Source: a virus. Taken from it: DNA of 21,435 bases. The DNA is taken from IMG/VR virus record IMGVR_UViG_3300000576_000030, positions 1 to 21,435 of that record. The stretch is one strand, 5' to 3'. Positions 5,761-21,319 of this stretch are shown here, piece by piece. The notes under the pieces are model-generated. The model saw only the letters and a program-made list of their open reading frames with translations. It was not told the DNA's origin and did not search any database. The stretch's first letter is position 1; every line of letters begins with the position of its first letter. The translations under genes were made by a program, and so were the position numbers.

Positions 5761-5767
5761 CTTACGT

Positions 5768-5776
5768 GTATTTACC
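5768..5776 (-). promoter_or_regulatory. T4-type late promoter, minus strand
   Basis: The minus strand reads GGTAAATAC, with TAAATA ending 8 nt before the ATG at 5760. It lies back to back with the plus-strand late promoter at 5829, the two elements about 52 bp apart. Confidence 0.65.
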
Positions 5777-5828
5777 TGTTTCACGTAGAAAACTACACAA
5801 GCCCAGACTCAGAAGTAGTTAACCACCC

Positions 5829-5845: not shown

Positions 5846-6214
5846 ATGAATTTAGAAATAATAAAAAACAACTACCCATTTCTTTCTTGTGTTAGGTACG
5901 CAAACACAGAATACATATGTGTGATTCAAAACTCAAGTGACCGATTAATAACTTTTTACAACTACGGTGAACTAAAATCATCAGATGAAAAAAGATTATT
6001 CTTGGAATTCGGAGACATTTGGTGGAATGAAAGCAACAGACTGGTACCCATTAATATATTCATGCGAGGCCAGATGGACCAGTTCAAACACATACTAAAG
6101 ACAGTCAACAAAAAAGATGCTGAGATTATTTTCGGCCCATCTATTTCTCTTGGTGATATCATACAAAAAAGAATCAAGCGTCGTCAGATCTCTCTAGTAC
6201 GGAAAATAGATTAA
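5846..6214 (+). CDS. Conserved phage protein of unknown function, plus strand
   Basis: The 122-residue product begins MNLEIIKNNYPFLS and contains an FGDIWWNESNRLVPINIFM block in the middle and a basic C-terminal tail (IKRRQISLVRK). I recall similar small proteins in marine T4-like phages but no function. It is one of only two genes on the plus strand and has its own late promoter 9 nt upstream. Its 3' end overlaps the convergent gene at 6174-6464 by 41 nt, so the two transcripts are antisense to each other over their ends. Confidence 0.75.
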   Translation: MNLEIIKNNYPFLSCVRYANTEYICVIQNSSDRLITFYNYGELKSSDEKRLFLEFGDIWWNESNRLVPINIFMRGQMDQFKHILKTVNKKDAEIIFGPSISLGDIIQKRIKRRQISLVRKID

Positions 6215-6464
6215 ACCTTTCCGACAACTGTAAGTTGTATAGCTTGCGAACGTTTTCTTTAACATACGCATCTAAGTGGGTGCGTATGTCATCATACCTT
6301 AGTTGTATGATCAGCATGTCTTTGTCAGACAACGTAACAATGATTCTACTGGTATCACTGCGTTTCAATTCAATGTTTTTCATTCTAAGACTATCAAAAA
6401 ACAACTTAACAAGTTGTAACCTTGGAGGTGTATAAACCACGTTAGTGGTTATATCATGTGTCAT
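6174..6464 (-). CDS. Unknown small protein, last gene of the uvsW operon
   Basis: The 96-residue charged protein has no recognisable motif. A GAGAGGAAC ribosome site lies 5 nt before the ATG, and the start overlaps the end of the Pol III-like gene by 11 nt. Its last 41 nt lie opposite the 3' end of the plus-strand gene. The predicted fold is mixed (LIIQLRYDDIRTHLDAYVKE). No function is proposed. Confidence 0.65.
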   Translation of the reverse strand: MTHDITTNVVYTPPRLQLVKLFFDSLRMKNIELKRSDTSRIIVTLSDKDMLIIQLRYDDIRTHLDAYVKENVRKLYNLQLSERFNLFSVLERSDDA

Positions 6465-7038
6465 TTTGTTCCTCTCTAATTAGGTTTAATTGTACGACTA
6501 TCACCATAGCAAAAGCATAGCTGTGTGACTTCTTGAAAAAGTACCCACTGTCTGTTTTTTCTTTTTTCCACACGTTCTTTTCAACAACATCCCAGGGTTG
6601 ATATCGCAAGTAAGACTTTGCTGGGCGTATAAGTGCTAATAACATAGCCAGATGATCAATACACATAGGCTTCATCTTTGTTGTGAGTTCTACGTGATTG
6701 TTTAAATGAAACAATTCCTTAACTATTTTTGGATCTTCAAGCATATCCCAAGTTGGTTCGCGTTCTAGTAGTGCATTTAGATGATCTTCAGATTCTACTT
6801 TCTGATATATACTGTTGTTAAGTAAATCTATCTTGAAATACCCAAGCTCCGCAGCACGATTATGATCTATATTGGCCACGTTTTCAAGTGGATTTAGTGG
6901 GATAGGTTGAAAGTAAACACCACTGTTGTGTTTTTCTGGCTTATCTTTTCTTTGTATGCTGGCTGGTACATGACGTAAATGACATAATAAATCGTTTCTG
7001 TTTTTCATGTCAATGTCAATGTCAGCATAGTTTATCAT
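6454..7038 (-). CDS. Condensed DNA polymerase III alpha-like protein
   Basis: The 194-residue protein carries several signature motifs of bacterial C-family polymerases, in the right order but with most of the enzyme missing. D6-I-D8-I-D10 resembles PDIDIDF, which carries two catalytic Asp. GYFKIDLLN (66-74, D71) resembles the KFDFLGL motif with the third catalytic Asp. LFHLNNH...LALIRPAK (109-141) resembles the GVFQLES...ALYRPGP region, and FFKKSHSYAFAM (167-178) resembles FNKSHAAAYA. Bacterial alpha subunits exceed 1,100 residues, so fingers, PHP exonuclease and OB domains are absent. Whether it polymerises or has another role is unknown. It overlaps neighbouring replication-operon genes at both ends (ATGA upstream). 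Confidence 0.75.
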   Translation of the reverse strand: MINYADIDIDMKNRNDLLCHLRHVPASIQRKDKPEKHNSGVYFQPIPLNPLENVANIDHNRAAELGYFKIDLLNNSIYQKVESEDHLNALLEREPTWDMLEDPKIVKELFHLNNHVELTTKMKPMCIDHLAMLLALIRPAKSYLRYQPWDVVEKNVWKKEKTDSGYFFKKSHSYAFAMVIVVQLNLIREEQNDT

Positions 7039-7715
7039 AGTCCTGCCTCTTGTAGTATTTGTTTCACGTATTCTATTTGATTTGTTTTTACTTTGAAAAT
7101 CTTGGTCCAGTTCTTTAACTTAACAACTTTAGAAATTATTTGATCTTGTTCTGGAGACAATCGTTCTATTAAGCTATCTGATGTTTCCGCAAGATACAAT
7201 GCCCAAGGTGATATTCTTCCATAACGTATTAAGTTGGTTGCTTCACCAGTAGACACTTCTTTGAAAAAATCACTAAAGTGCTTACCATTTTCTTGTGCCC
7301 ACTTTGCCATAGTTTCAATGCTACGTTCAAGTGCTCTATCAGGATTTTCTTTTTCTAGTAAGTCAACAATATAATTTTCGTAGGTTTTATCTCTGCACCA
7401 CAGATTTTCTTTTATACCGTTTGTGAATAAGTAATCAATAAAACGGTCTTGATCAATGGGTCTGAGGTCCATTATGTGTCTTGCCAATTTTATGAAAGAC
7501 ACATAATATCTACTTGTAACAAAATCATTGAATGTTTTTGGTGTTTGAGAATTAGTATTAAGTTCATAAAACCGCCTGTATAATTCAAGGCCCATTCTGC
7601 TTGCCACTGTGTCTTTTTCTAGATGTCTTCTTTTTATTGGGCACATGTGAGCAGAAAGTGTTTTTTCATTTCTGAAATCACGCTGACAAAATCCGCACAC
7701 AAATGGTTTACTCAC
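7035..7715 (-). CDS. Zinc-finger protein of the replication operon, unknown function
   Basis: The 226-residue protein starts with a C2H2-type finger: C7-x2-C10-x12-H23, with C25 or H31 as fourth ligand, plus the hydrophobic spacing of a classical finger (FVCGFCQRDFRNEKTLSAH). The remaining 190 residues are mostly helical with no known catalytic motif. I recall homologues in marine T4-like phages. It is coupled to both neighbours by ATGA overlaps, between gp62 and the Pol III-like gene, which suggests a role in replication, repair or transcription. Nucleic-acid binding is inferred from the finger only. Confidence 0.75.
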   Translation of the reverse strand: MSKPFVCGFCQRDFRNEKTLSAHMCPIKRRHLEKDTVASRMGLELYRRFYELNTNSQTPKTFNDFVTSRYYVSFIKLARHIMDLRPIDQDRFIDYLFTNGIKENLWCRDKTYENYIVDLLEKENPDRALERSIETMAKWAQENGKHFSDFFKEVSTGEATNLIRYGRISPWALYLAETSDSLIERLSPEQDQIISKVVKLKNWTKIFKVKTNQIEYVKQILQEAGL

Positions 7716-8167
7716 TTTGCTATATCCTTTGCTTGTTTCTTATCCAGTCCACTTTCTAGGCACAATTGTATTAGCTCTTCTTTAGACAGTATATCACACA
7801 AATCTTGTACATCTTTTGGATTCATTTGCGGATATGTTTCCAATAGAAAATCATATGCTTTTGAACGCTTGCCTTTCTTCGGTGGTGCAATCCATGGGTG
7901 AAAGCTTTTAGAGCCAGTACCACACAAAGATAGCAACTTCCATTGTAGCTGTGGGTGATTTCTAATCGTATTGAAATCAACATTCACCAAGGAGTTTACC
8001 ATGAGCAAATAGTGATATGCGTCTGATCCCGTTGCTGAACTAGCATAGCGCATAGAAAGCCAAGCACTCCACTCTTTCTTTTGTTCTTCACTGAGGTTTT
8101 CATAGAAGTGCTGGTCGTTGTTATCAATTGCGTGTAGCATCTTATCTAGAGGAATCTTTTTACTCAT
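7712..8167 (-). CDS. 62: Clamp-loader small subunit, T4 gp62-like
   Basis: The 151-residue protein fits my memory of gp62 from cyanophage-type T4-like viruses: an N-terminal LDKMLHAIDNNDQHFYENLSEEQKKEWSAW region (quoted in part: FYENLSEEQKKEW, LSMRYASS), a central QLQWKLLSLCGTGSKSFHPW block and a helical C-terminal half ending in KEELIQLC...DKKQAKDIAK. In T4, gp62 joins four gp44 ATPases to load the sliding clamp gp45. Neither gp44 nor gp45 lies in this window. It is coupled by ATGA overlaps to the genes on both sides. The assignment is moderate, since gp62 diverges fast. Confidence 0.65.
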   Translation of the reverse strand: MSKKIPLDKMLHAIDNNDQHFYENLSEEQKKEWSAWLSMRYASSATGSDAYHYLLMVNSLVNVDFNTIRNHPQLQWKLLSLCGTGSKSFHPWIAPPKKGKRSKAYDFLLETYPQMNPKDVQDLCDILSKEELIQLCLESGLDKKQAKDIAK

Positions 8168-8448
8168 GAAACTCCTAACTCGTTATATATTGTTCTTCTT
8201 ATTTCTTCTTGTCCAAGTGTGTCACTCACAATATCACATACTTGTGAGTCTGTTAATTCTAACAACTCCTCACTGTGCTTTATGCGATTCAAAAACAACT
8301 CTTTACCAGAGATATGTTCGTCTCTCAGAATAATATAAGGTCGATTATCAATATACACAGTACAGATACAAAAATTGATCATGTGCGTATTAATAACAAG
8401 CGACAAAACAGGCAAGTCTGCTGTTGACAACTTAGACAGTGAAATCAT
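8164..8448 (-). CDS. Unknown small protein in the uvsW-gp62 operon
   Basis: The 94-residue protein has a hydrophobic N-terminal half of beta-strand character (VLSLVINTHMINFCICTVYI) that is too polar in places for a confident membrane span, and a helical charged C-terminal half (KHSEELLELTDSQVCDIVSD). Both ends overlap neighbouring genes as ATGA, which supports translation. No family is recognised. Confidence 0.65.
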   Translation of the reverse strand: MISLSKLSTADLPVLSLVINTHMINFCICTVYIDNRPYIILRDEHISGKELFLNRIKHSEELLELTDSQVCDIVSDTLGQEEIRRTIYNELGVS

Positions 8449-8972
8449 TCAAACAACAACCCAACGTCTATTGGATCAGGTACTTTGTTTCCTTCTTTAA
8501 CAAATAAACTGCACCACGGATCATTTTTCGAGTCAAGTGGGTGCACAAGTAAATTGCTATTCTTTAGTTTAGGAAAGTACCACTTCACATCCGCATACAC
8601 ATCTGTGATGACAACTTCTTCAGTCTTTGGTACGTTGTTGCTTAGTGGGTTGAATAATAGTGTATGAAATCCTCTATCATTTAGATCAACAAGCGGCATT
8701 ACTTCCAAAGATGACATATGTTCATCACAGACCATAATACTCCAGTCCAGCGGCATTTGTATAGTGTTATTACCTACTTGTAATACAACTGCGGGTGCAC
8801 TAAAGCTTTCCAGAAATATTAGTGGCAACCAATAAAAATCGGTGTGCTTTATATTTGAACAGTCCCAAACGCAATACCTTATATCGTCTTCTGTTGTGTC
8901 AGGTATACAGTCTAAATTGTATACTGTGTTTTCTTCAGTTAGTATAAAAATTTTAACCTCCTCGCTAATCAA
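8445..8972 (-). CDS. Conserved phage protein of unknown function
   Basis: The 175-residue, beta-rich protein has segments such as IQMPLDWSIMVCDE, EVMPLVDLNDRGFHTLLFNP and DVKWYFPKLKNSNLLVHPL. They look conserved in marine T4-like phages from memory, but no function is known to me. There is no signal peptide or nucleotide-binding motif. Its start overlaps the preceding gene by 8 nt and its stop overlaps the next start as ATGA. The location between uvsW and gp62 suggests early or middle expression with the replication genes. Confidence 0.7.
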   Translation of the reverse strand: MISEEVKIFILTEENTVYNLDCIPDTTEDDIRYCVWDCSNIKHTDFYWLPLIFLESFSAPAVVLQVGNNTIQMPLDWSIMVCDEHMSSLEVMPLVDLNDRGFHTLLFNPLSNNVPKTEEVVITDVYADVKWYFPKLKNSNLLVHPLDSKNDPWCSLFVKEGNKVPDPIDVGLLFE

Positions 8973-9276
8973 TACAGTTTTGTATAATGGTCAATGAGAA
9001 TTGTCGCTCTAAATAATACCAAATATTCTCACCAGTCTTTAACTTGTGATGCATTTGTTTTTTTTCATCTATGTCTATATCTATAGAAAGACGAAGCACA
9101 GGAACAAAAAACTCTGGATCGATATGTATTTCTGCTTTTGTTATCCTGGCATTTTCGTCAAAATCACGAAGAATTGACTCGATGGATAATAGGACTCCGA
9201 ATGAGTCAGGATTAGTACTGATATATCCATATTCAAATACTTTTTCGGGTAGTGATATGCTAAATTTTTTAATCAT
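8965..9276 (-). CDS. Unknown small protein following uvsW
   Basis: The 103-residue protein contains alternating beta and acidic stretches (LRLSIDIDIDEKK). Its ATG overlaps the uvsW stop as ATGA, and its end overlaps the next gene by 8 nt. No domain is recognised. The coupling to uvsW suggests co-expression, not necessarily a shared function. Confidence 0.65.
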   Translation of the reverse strand: MIKKFSISLPEKVFEYGYISTNPDSFGVLLSIESILRDFDENARITKAEIHIDPEFFVPVLRLSIDIDIDEKKQMHHKLKTGENIWYYLERQFSLTIIQNCID

Positions 9277-14127: not shown

Positions 14128-14137
14128 TCCTTCCCTC
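14114..14137. terminator. Hairpin between convergent genes, likely bidirectional terminator
   Basis: GAGGGAAGG (14114-14122) and CCTTCCCTC (14129-14137) form a perfect 9-bp stem around a 6-nt loop. The loop holds the TAA of the plus-strand gene, and the arm ends within the TGA of the minus-strand gene. No clear U run follows in either direction, so it may act as a barrier or 3' stabiliser more than as an intrinsic terminator. Confidence 0.6.
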
Positions 14138-14600
14138 AGAGTGTTGCATCATCTAACCCAACTGCACGAAGTTTAACAATGTTGTTTATTTGCCAGTGAA
14201 TTATATCAAGTGCTTTGGTTAGTCCAATCCATTGATTCCTAACCAAAGCAAACTCATTAACTAACAAGGCCATAGTAATCACTTCACTATCACCATCCAC
14301 GTACTTTTCCACATCTCTTGAGCTTAGTGCTCTTTGATAGTTTTCCAAATATTTTCTGAAAGTCACACTCCTTTGTTTCTTGAGTTCAATGTTGAGGTAC
14401 TCTAGTATAGCTTCTATTTCTTGTAGTTGATTGTATCTATACTCTACTGTGCCTGGCAAAACTGTGGCAACTTTGGTAATTTCTTGTCCTCGTATTTTGA
14501 GGTCAGTATTTCTTGAAGACTCTAACTCTCGGTTGAAGTAATCAATACAATCAGGCAACAGAGAGATGTCATTCACAACTTTATTATACCAAGTAGCCAT
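14136..14600 (-). CDS. Conserved helical phage protein, last gene of the gp32-uvsX operon
   Basis: The 154-residue protein is almost all helical and charged, with blocks such as EYRYNQLQEIEAILEYL, FRKYLENYQRALSSRDVEKY and ALDIIHWQINNIVKLRAVG. It resembles a conserved marine T4-like family from memory. I considered UvsY, the UvsX partner, because of size, helix content and location in the uvsX operon, but the T4 UvsY landmarks are not clear. The start has GAGG upstream, inside the end of the peroxiredoxin gene, with 6 nt between the genes. The stop lies in the bidirectional hairpin. Confidence 0.75.
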   Translation of the reverse strand: MATWYNKVVNDISLLPDCIDYFNRELESSRNTDLKIRGQEITKVATVLPGTVEYRYNQLQEIEAILEYLNIELKKQRSVTFRKYLENYQRALSSRDVEKYVDGDSEVITMALLVNEFALVRNQWIGLTKALDIIHWQINNIVKLRAVGLDDATL

Positions 14601-14606
14601 TTTATT

Positions 14607-15128
14607 TTAGACCTCGTTAAGAAAGGATATCACATTTTCAGGAGAAGTTTCACCGTATGGGTCGTCTTCGCAATTATCACTCTTTCCTGGTTCAACAAAC
14701 ATTTTTTCTACGATTCCATTATCAACAACCGCAGCATATCTCCATGAGCGATATCCAAATCCGAGATTGCTTTTGTTCACAAGCATATCCATGCCTTTAG
14801 TGAACTCTCCATTTCCGTCTGGGACCATTTTGATGTTCTTAATGTTTTGTGTTTGTGCCCATTTGTTCATAGTGAATGAATCATTTACGGATACACAATA
14901 TACATCGTCTACACCCAAAGATCTAATGGTTTCGTAATTTTCTTCAAACCCAGGTACTTGATATGTTGAACAGGTTGGTGTGAAGGCCCCAGGCAATGAA
15001 AAAATCACCACTCTCTTACCGTCAAACAATTCTGATGAAGTGACTTTTTGCCAACGATATGGATTGTCACCACCAATTGACTCGTCTCTTACTCTTGTCA
15101 TGAATGTTACATCAGGTACTCTAACCAA
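14607..15128 (-). CDS. Peroxiredoxin (Prx5 type)
   Basis: The 173-residue enzyme reduces hydrogen or organic peroxides with thiol electrons. The active site PGAFTPTC (46-53) carries the peroxidatic C53 with T50; R130 in SWRYA is the likely active-site Arg. Further Cys at 78 and 153 could resolve. Length and sequence match the Prx5/AhpC-TSA group. The start is a TTG at 15128 with a very good AGGAGG site 9 nt upstream; the next in-frame ATG at residue 10 would remove part of the first strand, so TTG is preferred. It is embedded in the gp32-uvsX operon, two bases after the preceding stop. It is a host-like metabolic gene, probably protecting replication from oxidative stress. Confidence 0.9.
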   Translation of the reverse strand: MVRVPDVTFMTRVRDESIGGDNPYRWQKVTSSELFDGKRVVIFSLPGAFTPTCSTYQVPGFEENYETIRSLGVDDVYCVSVNDSFTMNKWAQTQNIKNIKMVPDGNGEFTKGMDMLVNKSNLGFGYRSWRYAAVVDNGIVEKMFVEPGKSDNCEDDPYGETSPENVISFLNEV

Positions 15129-17902: not shown

Positions 17903-19085
17903 TCGTTAATTTAACATTTTCTAAAAAATTTTTCATTATTTTTTTATCAAACTCTGTTACTGTTTTTCCATTCATTAACTTTTCAGCAACGCCTTTTATA
18001 TATTCGGATAGTTCGTTTTGTTCCTGTGCGCTATTAATAACACACTCTAATTTCTTGCCAAGATTGATTTCTGGTGTATAGTACCTTATTACTTCATCTT
18101 CTGGCAATAGTTGTTCATTCCTAACATAAAACGGTTTTTCAGAAAGTGCTTGTATTCTTTTTTCTCGCTTTAGTTTTTCCTTTATTATGTTGTTAATGAA
18201 GGGAAGTGCCGCTTCTACTCTTTGATCAATGTGCTTTACAGTGAACAAGTCTTTTACGTCATCGCTGTTATATGTTACCTCAGTGTCATCACTTGCGGTT
18301 GCTTCTTTGCAAGCGTCTTCATACGTTCTCTTTCCGCTATACTTTTTTAGCTTTTCTTTTGCTATTTTATATTGTTGTTTGGATAAGTTTAATATCTCAT
18401 CAGACTGTTGATTATGGTTTAGTGTTCTGGCATATGTGTTGAATTCGCGTAAGTTCACCATCTCCTCAGTAAGTTCCATTATGTGTTGACCTATCTCATC
18501 TTGGAAATCACCTCCTTTACTTATATGTCTGGCCATTGCTCGGGCAGCGGTCAATAATGGATAAGGAAAACGTGTTCTTTCACCGTTTGCTTCTATATAG
18601 ATAGACTTTATGCCTCTGCTTCTTGAACCTTTTTGTTCTTCGTCTACGTCTTGTTTATGCTTTACTACAACTTTGACATCCTCTAGTGCTTGGTAGCTAG
18701 TCTTTCTAGTTCCATACATTGCAGACTCTAGAACTTCATCACTCTTTTTTGCTTTTAGTCTTGCTTGCATCGCATAATCTTTTGGCTTTATTTGTCTACC
18801 GAATACTTGAAGATTTGTTTTCAGCATATGCCTGTTACTAAGCATACGAAGCTTTTTCATCAGTTTGCTGAAGTCTTCCAGATCAGTGTGCTTGTTTCTA
18901 TTGACAATAATCTCTCTGGAATCTTGGTCCAGCGTCACCATATAGTTTGGATCACTAACAAAAAATCTACGAGCTTCAGTTGGATCTGTTGTTTCAACAC
19001 CTTCTTCAGTGTACATCCTTGCTTGGTGTTGTTGTCCAGTTATTATGCCGTATATTCTATTGGAAACATCTTCAAAATTAGTCAT
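17892..19085 (-). CDS. Probable structural protein next to terminase, unknown function
   Basis: The frame opens at 19118, but the ATG at 19085 (MTNFEDVSNRIYG) lies 5 nt after a late -10 element located inside the longer version, so 397 residues are chosen. The protein is soluble, highly charged and largely helical, with a KGSRSRGIKSIYIEANGER segment near 145-165 and FPYPLLTAARAMARHI after it. I recall homologues next to or near terminase in marine T4-like phages, annotated only as hypothetical or structural. Late expression supports a virion or assembly role. Confidence 0.75.
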   Translation of the reverse strand: MTNFEDVSNRIYGIITGQQHQARMYTEEGVETTDPTEARRFFVSDPNYMVTLDQDSREIIVNRNKHTDLEDFSKLMKKLRMLSNRHMLKTNLQVFGRQIKPKDYAMQARLKAKKSDEVLESAMYGTRKTSYQALEDVKVVVKHKQDVDEEQKGSRSRGIKSIYIEANGERTRFPYPLLTAARAMARHISKGGDFQDEIGQHIMELTEEMVNLREFNTYARTLNHNQQSDEILNLSKQQYKIAKEKLKKYSGKRTYEDACKEATASDDTEVTYNSDDVKDLFTVKHIDQRVEAALPFINNIIKEKLKREKRIQALSEKPFYVRNEQLLPEDEVIRYYTPEINLGKKLECVINSAQEQNELSEYIKGVAEKLMNGKTVTEFDKKIMKNFLENVKLTIDK

Positions 19086-19161
19086 AACTGTATTTACCGG
19101 AATCAAAAAGAAAGCCACACGAGCCGTGGCACTGTGGATGAATGCGTCTATAGATGATCAT
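19078..19161 (-). CDS. Possible 27-residue peptide after an orphan late promoter
   Basis: An ATG at 19161, 5 nt after the TAAATA element at 19167, opens 27 codons (MIIYRRIHPQCHGSCGFLFD...) that end at TAA 19078-19080, overlapping the next gene start. The frame runs through the terminator hairpin and the next late promoter, so most of it doubles as regulatory DNA. It is listed only because its promoter has no other target; it is more likely non-coding. Confidence 0.15.
   Translation of the reverse strand: MIIYRRIHPQCHGSCGFLFDSGKYSYD
19091..19098 (-). promoter_or_regulatory. T4-type late promoter for the 397-residue protein gene
   Basis: The minus strand reads GGTAAATA, preceded by CC. TAAATA ends 5 nt before the ATG at 19085, with no ribosome site between, predicting a leaderless mRNA. 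Confidence 0.65.
19105..19130 (-). terminator. Intrinsic terminator with T-rich tail
   Basis: On the minus strand GCCAC (19126-19130) pairs with GTGGC (19114-19118) around a GGCTCGT loop, followed by TTTCTTTTT (19105-19113). It lies between two late promoters and should stop transcripts coming from the terminase side just before the next gene's own promoter. Confidence 0.65.
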
Positions 19162-19166
19162 AACGT

Positions 19167-19174
19167 TATTTATC
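19167..19174 (-). promoter_or_regulatory. Late promoter in copy A with no obvious gene
   Basis: The minus strand reads GATAAATA. Transcription would reach the strong terminator at 19105-19130 after about 55 nt, so the only products would be a very short RNA or a 27-residue peptide. Confidence 0.5.
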
Positions 19175-19186
19175 GTCATTCCGCAG

Positions 19187-19208
19187 AAAACCACAAGAGC
19201 CGTGGCTC
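19187..19208 (-). terminator. Terminator-like hairpin after terminase (copy A)
   Basis: On the minus strand CCAC (19202-19205) and GTGG (19191-19194) form a short stem extended by two G-T pairs, followed by TTTT (19187-19190). An alternative GAGCC/GGCTC pairing overlaps it. It shares the CCACGGCTC core with the stronger terminator at 19105-19130. Confidence 0.5.
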
Positions 19209-19224
19209 AGCAGTAGTTCACCGA

Positions 19225-21249
19225 TTATACGATAACTGGCATCGGTTCGTTATCGAATTCCTCATCATCAGAGAAACGATAGTCCATCATATTTTCTAAA
19301 CCCTCTTCCCATTGGGATATGTGTTGTGACATGCGTATATTTACTAAAAGACTCATCACCAAATCATCAGTTTCACCAGCACAAGCACTATAAGAATTTC
19401 CTTTTGCGATAAAATATTTTAATTCGTGAATCAAACTTTTACTTTTTATTGAAATCCTATCATTCTCTACTAAATGCTTTAATTTAGCACACGCTTCAAG
19501 TTTATTTTGATTTGTTGTGTTATATCCTTTTCTTTTTATTCCGGTGGACTTTCTTTTTGGATCATGCATAAAAGTGCCCGGGAAGGTTTCTTCATCTTGT
19601 TCTCTTATGGCAACAAGACACGCCTCTCCTATAGAGTTATTTTCAACTGTCCAATAAATCTCACTTTTTGGTGCTGTTTCTTGTATTTCTATTGCTATGC
19701 TTTTTAAAACTTTTAATTGATCTTCGATTCTTGTTTTATTATGCCTCCATTCAGCTACTTGTTTTAGAGAAGGCAATTCCAATACTTGGATTGCACTATA
19801 ATCACCGCCTGTGCCCATACTTGGGTCAAGTGTTATGGTATAAATCTTTTTATCTTTTATGGGTTCATACCAACGAACTTGTCCTGTTTTTCTGATTGGT
19901 TGTTCGTGTTCAAGTTGCAGCAATTTAGCACCTGATATAAGTGTTTCTGTGTATGAAACAAATTCACAAAGATGTTCGCGCTTGAATCGATCAGATCCAA
20001 TTTTTTCAAACTCTACTCTGGCCCATTCTTCATCACGTTCTGGGTGTGATTCCCAAGTTGCCAAGTAACCTTTGAATCCATTTGCACCTATATCTTGTTC
20101 ATTTCCATATTCATCTATAGTCTTTTGTGAACCAAACCAAAGTTCAGCAAATTGGTTGTCGTCTTGGTTTGGTGTGCTTGTGATGATAACTTTACCACCT
20201 GTACTTAAAGTAGGACTCAATGATGTCCAAAACTCTCTGGCTATGGTTGGTCTAACAAACGCAAATTCGTCAAGGTATGCGCAGTTATGTACATCAATTC
20301 CGTTGGCTATAAATGATTGTGTATCTTGTACATTGATCAAATCTGACACTGCATGTGTTTCTGTTTCTAAGATTCCAGTAATCGTATCACTACCACATTC
20401 GGTTCTAATATTTTCACCAATTAAAAGTTTATCACAGCTCTTCCAACAATTACCATCTATTGAAAAAAATTCATGATCTGGTGTACACTCAATTTGATAC
20501 TTTTTTGTTGTAAGCAAAACGCAACTTTTAAGTGCAACTGTGATACCTCCAAAGTCTTTGAAACCTTTAATCGTTAGCACTTCATACTTTGTGTTTTTTG
20601 TTAATGCAACGTCCTTTGACAAATCCTTGTTCTTTTCAATTCTTTCTTCATTGCTTAATTTTATGAGTTCTCTTATTGTGCTTTTTTTAATTTCGTCTGT
20701 TTCTTTGTCTCGTACGGTAACTATACTCTTGTCTGTTCTAACACAACTAATACTCATACCGCGACCTGTGTTTTCTGTTGTTGTTTGTGCAATAACTCTG
20801 GAGCCATTGTCAAACTCTACACTTCCTTTGTTGTATGATGTAACACCACAACGTATATGATCAGGAACAGATTCATATGCAAATCTAAGTCTTTGCATTA
20901 TTTCTTGTGCCCCAAGATATTTGTGTGCTGCTATTAAGATTGTGCTATCTGGGTTGAACATTGCAAACCAAAGCAAGTATGCTGAAGCCAACACTGATTT
21001 GCCCATTTGTCTACTAACCATAGCGATAGAGTTTCTATAGTTATGGTATACATCACACAATTCATATTGATATGGATATAACTTAAAAGGAACACGACCT
21101 TTAGTTGGGTGCTGGACATATACGAAGTTTTCAATAAAGTATGTTGGACCAGTAACTTGGTTCATGCACTGTGATAGCTCTTCTATCATCGTTTGCGTGT
21201 ATGTTATCTTTTTGTATGGCTTTTTGACTAGGTTTATATCTACACTCAT
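19225..21249 (-). CDS. 17: Terminase large subunit gp17 interrupted by an intein
   Basis: The ATG at 21249 (MSVDINLVKK) is chosen because a late promoter ends 8 nt upstream, inside the longer open frame. The 674-residue precursor has the packaging ATPase with Walker A SRQMGKS (79-85), Walker B YLDE (325-328) and the ITSTPN coupling motif, then an RNase H-like nuclease with Asp in TLDPSMGTGGDYS, Glu in WTVENNS and Asp in GETDDLVM. Residues 169-322 are an intein; splicing would leave 520 residues, somewhat shorter than T4 gp17 (610). The enzyme translocates and cuts the concatemeric genome at the prohead portal. Confidence 0.93.
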   Translation of the reverse strand: MSVDINLVKKPYKKITYTQTMIEELSQCMNQVTGPTYFIENFVYVQHPTKGRVPFKLYPYQYELCDVYHNYRNSIAMVSRQMGKSVLASAYLLWFAMFNPDSTILIAAHKYLGAQEIMQRLRFAYESVPDHIRCGVTSYNKGSVEFDNGSRVIAQTTTENTGRGMSISCVRTDKSIVTVRDKETDEIKKSTIRELIKLSNEERIEKNKDLSKDVALTKNTKYEVLTIKGFKDFGGITVALKSCVLLTTKKYQIECTPDHEFFSIDGNCWKSCDKLLIGENIRTECGSDTITGILETETHAVSDLINVQDTQSFIANGIDVHNCAYLDEFAFVRPTIAREFWTSLSPTLSTGGKVIITSTPNQDDNQFAELWFGSQKTIDEYGNEQDIGANGFKGYLATWESHPERDEEWARVEFEKIGSDRFKREHLCEFVSYTETLISGAKLLQLEHEQPIRKTGQVRWYEPIKDKKIYTITLDPSMGTGGDYSAIQVLELPSLKQVAEWRHNKTRIEDQLKVLKSIAIEIQETAPKSEIYWTVENNSIGEACLVAIREQDEETFPGTFMHDPKRKSTGIKRKGYNTTNQNKLEACAKLKHLVENDRISIKSKSLIHELKYFIAKGNSYSACAGETDDLVMSLLVNIRMSQHISQWEEGLENMMDYRFSDDEEFDNEPMPVIV
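20284..20745 (-). other. Mini-intein inside terminase
   Basis: The 154-residue insert begins with C1 (CVRTDKSIVTV, block A), has block B as ECTPDHEFF with the TxxH motif, and ends with block F SDLINVQDTQSFIANGIDVHN, the penultimate His and terminal Asn, followed by extein C+1. These are the residues of a class 1 self-splicing intein. No homing endonuclease domain (LAGLIDADG or HNH) is visible, so it should splice but not move by itself. The insertion lies between GRGMSIS and CAYLDEF, directly before Walker B. Confidence 0.92.
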
Positions 21250-21257
21250 AGTAAGAT

Positions 21258-21265
21258 TATTTATC
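21258..21265 (-). promoter_or_regulatory. T4-type late promoter for terminase
   Basis: The minus strand reads GATAAATA; TAAATA ends 8 nt before the ATG at 21249. The same GACGATAAATA string recurs at 19167. Confidence 0.6.
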
Positions 21266-21276
21266 GTCATTCCACA

Positions 21277-21299
21277 GAAAACCACAAGAGTCGTGGCTC
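21277..21299 (-). terminator. Terminator-like hairpin before terminase (copy B)
   Basis: On the minus strand CCAC (21293-21296) pairs with GTGG (21282-21285), followed by TTTT (21278-21281). It would end the transcript of the repeat-protein gene just before the terminase promoter. Confidence 0.5.
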
Positions 21300-21319
21300 A
21301 GCAGTAGTTCACATATGAC

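Follow-up and report, generated by a model that had tools for sequence, protein, structure and literature searches.

The terminase large subunit (TerL) gene in the 21,435-nt stretch of viral DNA analysed here (the window; IMG/VR record IMGVR_UViG_3300000576_000030) is interrupted in frame, directly before its Walker B motif, by an insert predicted to be a class 1, cis-splicing mini-intein lacking an endonuclease domain. On the basis of its residues, its profile matches and its modelled fold, we regard this assignment as almost certain, with the insert residing in the TerL of a T4-type phage as an endonuclease-less member of the AceL/GOS/Cat family of terminase inteins. Apart from its exact position the intein is ordinary in kind, and it is most likely a stripped-down selfish element.

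The gp17-like TerL gene (19228..21249, minus strand) runs in one frame across the intein, with 674 codons open from the ATG at 21249, and matches the Pfam models Terminase_6N (2.5e-12) and Terminase_6C (5.8e-6). An alternative start is possible at an in-frame GTG further upstream (21285), which would lengthen the frame to 686 aa; within this longer frame the insert comprises residues 181 to 334, which correspond exactly to 20745..20284 (minus strand, 154 aa), the coordinates at which the original prediction had placed a mini-intein. The N-extein (168 residues; 20746..21249, minus strand) contains the Walker A motif SRQMGKS and ends in GRGMSIS, and the C-extein (19228..20283, minus strand) starts with Cys+1-Ala-Tyr-Leu-Asp-Glu, the Walker B motif, and continues into the nuclease domain. 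With slashes marking the junctions, the insert and its context read GRGMSIS/CVRTDKSIVTVRDKETDEIKK...IECTPDHEFFS...VSDLINVQDTQSFIANGIDVHN/CAYLDEFAFV. Excision of the insert leaves a TerL of 520 aa counted from the ATG at 21249, the length that had been anticipated for the spliced product, which is 57% identical to the TerL of Pseudomonas phage PA5oct and aligns with it gaplessly at the joint (TTENTGRGMSIS-CAYLDEFAFV in the window, TTENTGRGMSIS-LVYLDEMAFV in PA5oct). The catalytic Asp-Glu pair of TerL occupies positions +5/+6 of the C-extein, and thus the insert opens the Walker B strand rather than lying at the Asp-Glu itself; the earlier proposal that the insertion splits the ATPase was borne out in this form, but not its location of the break at the catalytic residues. 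A foreign base composition was also considered and set aside, the difference in GC content between the intein (0.325) and the exteins (0.364–0.369) being too small to mean much.

All residues expected of a class 1 intein are present in the insert, as first noticed from the sequence: Cys1, the block-B residues T88-P-D-H91, the block-F Asp135, His153 and Asn154, followed by Cys+1. Across 18 aligned terminase inteins, T88, H91, D135, V139, H153 and N154 were invariant, and block F of the window intein was slightly unusual in reading V-S-D where most relatives have V-Y-D. The suggested profile search for Hint domains gave a match of the insert alone to Pfam Intein_splicing at E = 4e-7, under the Pfam gathering score, and weak matches to the TIGRFAM intein-end models TIGR01445 and TIGR01443. 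When 17 terminase inteins from other phages, with the window left out, were used to build a profile, this recovered the TerL ORF at E = 5.5e-20, whereas the next ORF of the window scored E = 0.22. Additionally, a family profile of the C-terminal splicing part (16 rows, one of them the window) matched the consensus Cat intein in the PDB at E = 3e-21. An AlphaFold2 model of the intein, built from the alignment, adopted the Hint fold with a mean pLDDT of 83, falling below 50 only at residues 38–44. When this model was compared with known structures, the best Foldseek match was the VidaL intein (PDB 6vgv; E = 1.2e-8, TM-score 0.71/0.75), and VIA-align returned many inteins at Z 13–16, the highest at 15.8. 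A direct search of IMG/VR with the intein alone gave no matches, and a family alignment was needed to reach its relatives.

The 154 residues of the intein comprise an N-terminal splicing part of about 28 residues (20662..20745, minus strand), delimited from alignments and relatives and resembling the short IntN of split terminase inteins; a linker of about 26 residues, partly modelled with low confidence (20584..20661, minus strand), at the place where relatives split or carry GIY-YIG; and a C-terminal splicing part of 100 residues (EVLTIKGFKDF...IDVHN; 20284..20583, minus strand). Pfam and TIGRFAM searches found no endonuclease domain in the insert, in agreement with the original prediction, and only this short linker separates the two splicing parts. 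The idea that the linker is a NUMOD3 remnant (LSNEERIEKNKDL, compared with LSKERKENISKGL in L089) was dropped, given that Pfam yielded no NUMOD3 match there even at E up to 10.

Previous studies have described TerL inteins at Walker A, Walker B and the C-motif, with representatives spliced in an assay (PMC5050341). All five terminase inteins assayed in that work, one of them in Walker B, spliced mainly to product, and the precursor was readily visible for only one (PMC5050341). Likewise, the AceL-, GOS- and Cat-TerL inteins splice readily, at rates that have been reported (PMC11766414). These three (PMC11766414; PDB 6dsl) share with the window intein a TerL host, class 1 organisation and the Cys1/Cys+1 pair, but they are split after about 25–37 residues, where the contiguous window intein has its 26-residue linker. 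Moreover, AceL-TerL has Glu at +2 and thus probably occupies the later EFE/CEF site, whereas the window intein precedes Walker B. The mycobacteriophage TerL1-e intein also lies in the Walker B motif of a TerL and splices in an assay (PMC5050341); its host is of the Terminase_1 type and that of the window of the Terminase_6 type, and the likeness noted here is one of motif and splicing. Contiguous mini-inteins related to that of the window were found in Vibrio phage vB_VmeM-32 and Nitratidesulfovibrio phage SRB7757 (35% and 28%, respectively); they occupy the YIDE/CAF site, six residues downstream of the window's site and after the Asp-Glu, where the inteins of Thanatos-2 and JK32 are fractured. 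The window intein is a natural contiguous addition to a family that bench work has mainly encountered in split form, and for phage biology it is one more example of TerL as a hot spot for inteins.

Comparison with intein-free homologues at GRGMSIS-YLDEF, as had been proposed, revealed that the 70 nearest terminases in IMG/VR all read through the window's site with no insert there; a few of the more remote ones contain inteins elsewhere in the gene. Across phage genomes and IMG/VR, related inteins are found at several different registers near Walker B. Inteins at the window's own site, which precedes C-x-x-x-Asp-Glu, occur in L086–L092, L094–L097, L099, L100, L105 and L112, although for several of these the C-side of the joint alone was seen. 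The site two residues upstream (CNxxFLDE) is filled in L093, L101, L102 and L106–L109, and the site after the Asp-Glu (DE/CAF) in vB_VmeM-32, SRB7757, Thanatos-2, JK32, L103, L104 and Campylobacter phages; further terminase intein sites are Walker A and EFE/CEF. The closest counterpart in architecture, L089 (IMGVR_UViG_3300010297_000514), is contiguous at the window's site (IRGYAVN/C...HN/CLIIDEAAF), has no detected endonuclease and is about 40% identical to the window intein over aligned columns; it differs in belonging to another terminase lineage, in its C-extein (CLIIDE) and in its longer linker. The search for an endonuclease-bearing allele at this site was successful: in L086 and L094 the intein is fractured, and a GIY-YIG domain with NUMOD3 follows the N-part. 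In L096 a single frame holds both parts, separated by GIY-YIG-like residues, a domain not called by Pfam. The occurrence of related inteins at this position in other phages, contiguous or split and some with GIY-YIG/NUMOD3, indicates that it is an established intein target. Taken with the window, L089, L096 and the fractured L086/L094 provide contiguous, endonuclease-bearing and split states at one site, which helps to ask how atypical split inteins arise.

In a tree of the C-parts, the window intein grouped with the same-site inteins of L096/L100 (96/86) and L094 (93/80); its branch was long, at 1.78 changes per site. A hop from the YIDE/CAF site that brought the Cys-Ala along was therefore rejected, since the tree places the intein, despite its long branch, with same-site inteins instead. 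Cys at +1 was present in 14/14 filled contexts inspected. Among the 81 loci inspected first, +1 at the window's site was Leu in 78 and Cys in none; the window has Cys-Ala at +1/+2 where its own intein-free relatives have Leu-Leu or Leu-Val. The evidence supports the view that the window lineage acquired the +1 Cys needed by the intein, either earlier than the insert or together with it, which would have left Walker B with Cys-Ala. In another terminase clade (RGGSFN/CVFLDEF or RGGSFT/CVFLDEF, the slash marking the window's site), 28 loci without an insert there have a native Cys at +1, providing a ready-made intein site in that clade.

Other terminase genes showed further arrangements. In L086 (6301–10511) a single TerL harbours a first intein at Walker A and a second preceding Walker B, the latter being the fractured one with GIY-YIG and NUMOD3; the first is overlapped by a further ORF (6653–7489) whose C-terminus is endonuclease-like (DUF559). 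In Campylobacter phage CPX (L083, 2498–3826) the terminase gene starts with an intein C-part at the DE/CAF site, and the N-half was not found in the 2.5 kb upstream of this gene; terminases of this type in fletcherviruses are possibly trans-split. Fractured DE/CAF-site terminase inteins in L072 (467–2212) and L080 (901–2652) carry a TnsA-like or endonuclease I-like nuclease domain, which is not of the same class as the GIY-YIG domain seen at the site of the window intein.

We infer that the window intein splices, and that it does so spontaneously. After translation, according to the established chemistry of class 1 inteins, Cys1 would undergo an N-S shift, attacking the Ser-Cys bond, and the acyl group would move to Cys+1 by transesterification; Asn154 would then cyclise with the assistance of His153, and an S-N shift would join the exteins into the 520-residue terminase with Walker B intact. 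With the Walker B strand interrupted by the insert, the unspliced precursor should lack ATPase activity; the expectation of a terminase inactive until splicing is sound in this respect, and would hold for any intein in an ATPase core. The intein most likely arrived by homing of an endonuclease-bearing allele, the endonuclease then having been lost, or never having been present in the window lineage, and the window copy is best interpreted as a survivor of that presumed history, devoid of an endonuclease. Its sole effect for the phage would be to restore TerL by leaving.

The original prediction went further and proposed that splicing acts as a timing or redox switch on packaging. Conditional splicing that gates DNA packaging through redox state, temperature or late-infection timing would be consistent with a non-functional unspliced ATPase, with two Cys nucleophiles that could be oxidised, with a peroxiredoxin encoded on the same contig, and with the conditional splicing reported for other inteins (PMC6195587, PMC8557812). 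However, the insert is missing from all 70 nearest terminases, so packaging control in this group is independent of it; its presence is patchy, homing would provide a complete alternative explanation, and the endonuclease-bearing allele at the site favours a selfish element. Furthermore, the N-extein beside the junction (GRGMSIS) offers no Cys for a disulfide trap, and no redox-type Cys arrangement was evident, with the possible exception of Cys87. Within the intein, only Cys1 and Cys87 are conserved, the latter preceding the TxxH motif in 14/17 family inteins, while Cys 75, 100, 104 and 117 have few or no counterparts in relatives. For the terminase intein family, Cys1 and Cys+1 form the usual pair of catalytic residues, and the terminase inteins assayed, five of five, went mainly to product (PMC5050341). 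A timing or redox switch is thus not supported, and we consider it very improbable.

Even less probable is that the insert is inactive and decaying in a defective phage without a working terminase. The long branch makes loss of activity compatible with the sequence, and the record is a 21-kb fragment; against this, all 674 codons are open with every splicing residue in place, and the exteins retain the catalytic motifs and their 57% identity to PA5oct TerL. A bacterial-intein-like (BIL) or Hedgehog-type Hint domain that cleaves without splicing, which shares the fold and appears at lower score in the fold-match lists, is the least credible reading in view of the exact placement within a conserved motif, the gapless alignment at the empty site, the uniform +1 Cys of filled contexts and the terminase inteins as closest sequence match.

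Besides the mini-intein, the window displayed several minor features. A motif like GGTAAATAC or CGATAAATAA lies about 4–10 bases before the ATG of five genes, TerL included (21266, 19099, 5777 and 2178 on the minus strand; 5828 on the plus strand); similar to the core of T4 late promoters, it is a candidate promoter from which messages would have very short leaders or none. A 61-nt intergenic repeat, 64–93% alike, occurs at 5763–5823, 19085–19145, 19161–19221 and 21252–21312, and in it a hairpin-like GCCACGGCTC segment adjoins the putative promoter motif; these repeats are possibly terminator plus promoter units. The peroxiredoxin gene (14607–15128, minus strand; Pfam Redoxin 7e-26) lies beside a UvsY-like gene (14136–14600). 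Finally, a run of short, mostly overlapping ORFs extends over 6174–9276 on the minus strand, one of which (6454–7038) matches a DNA polymerase PHROG, and this region may encode a DNA polymerase in pieces.
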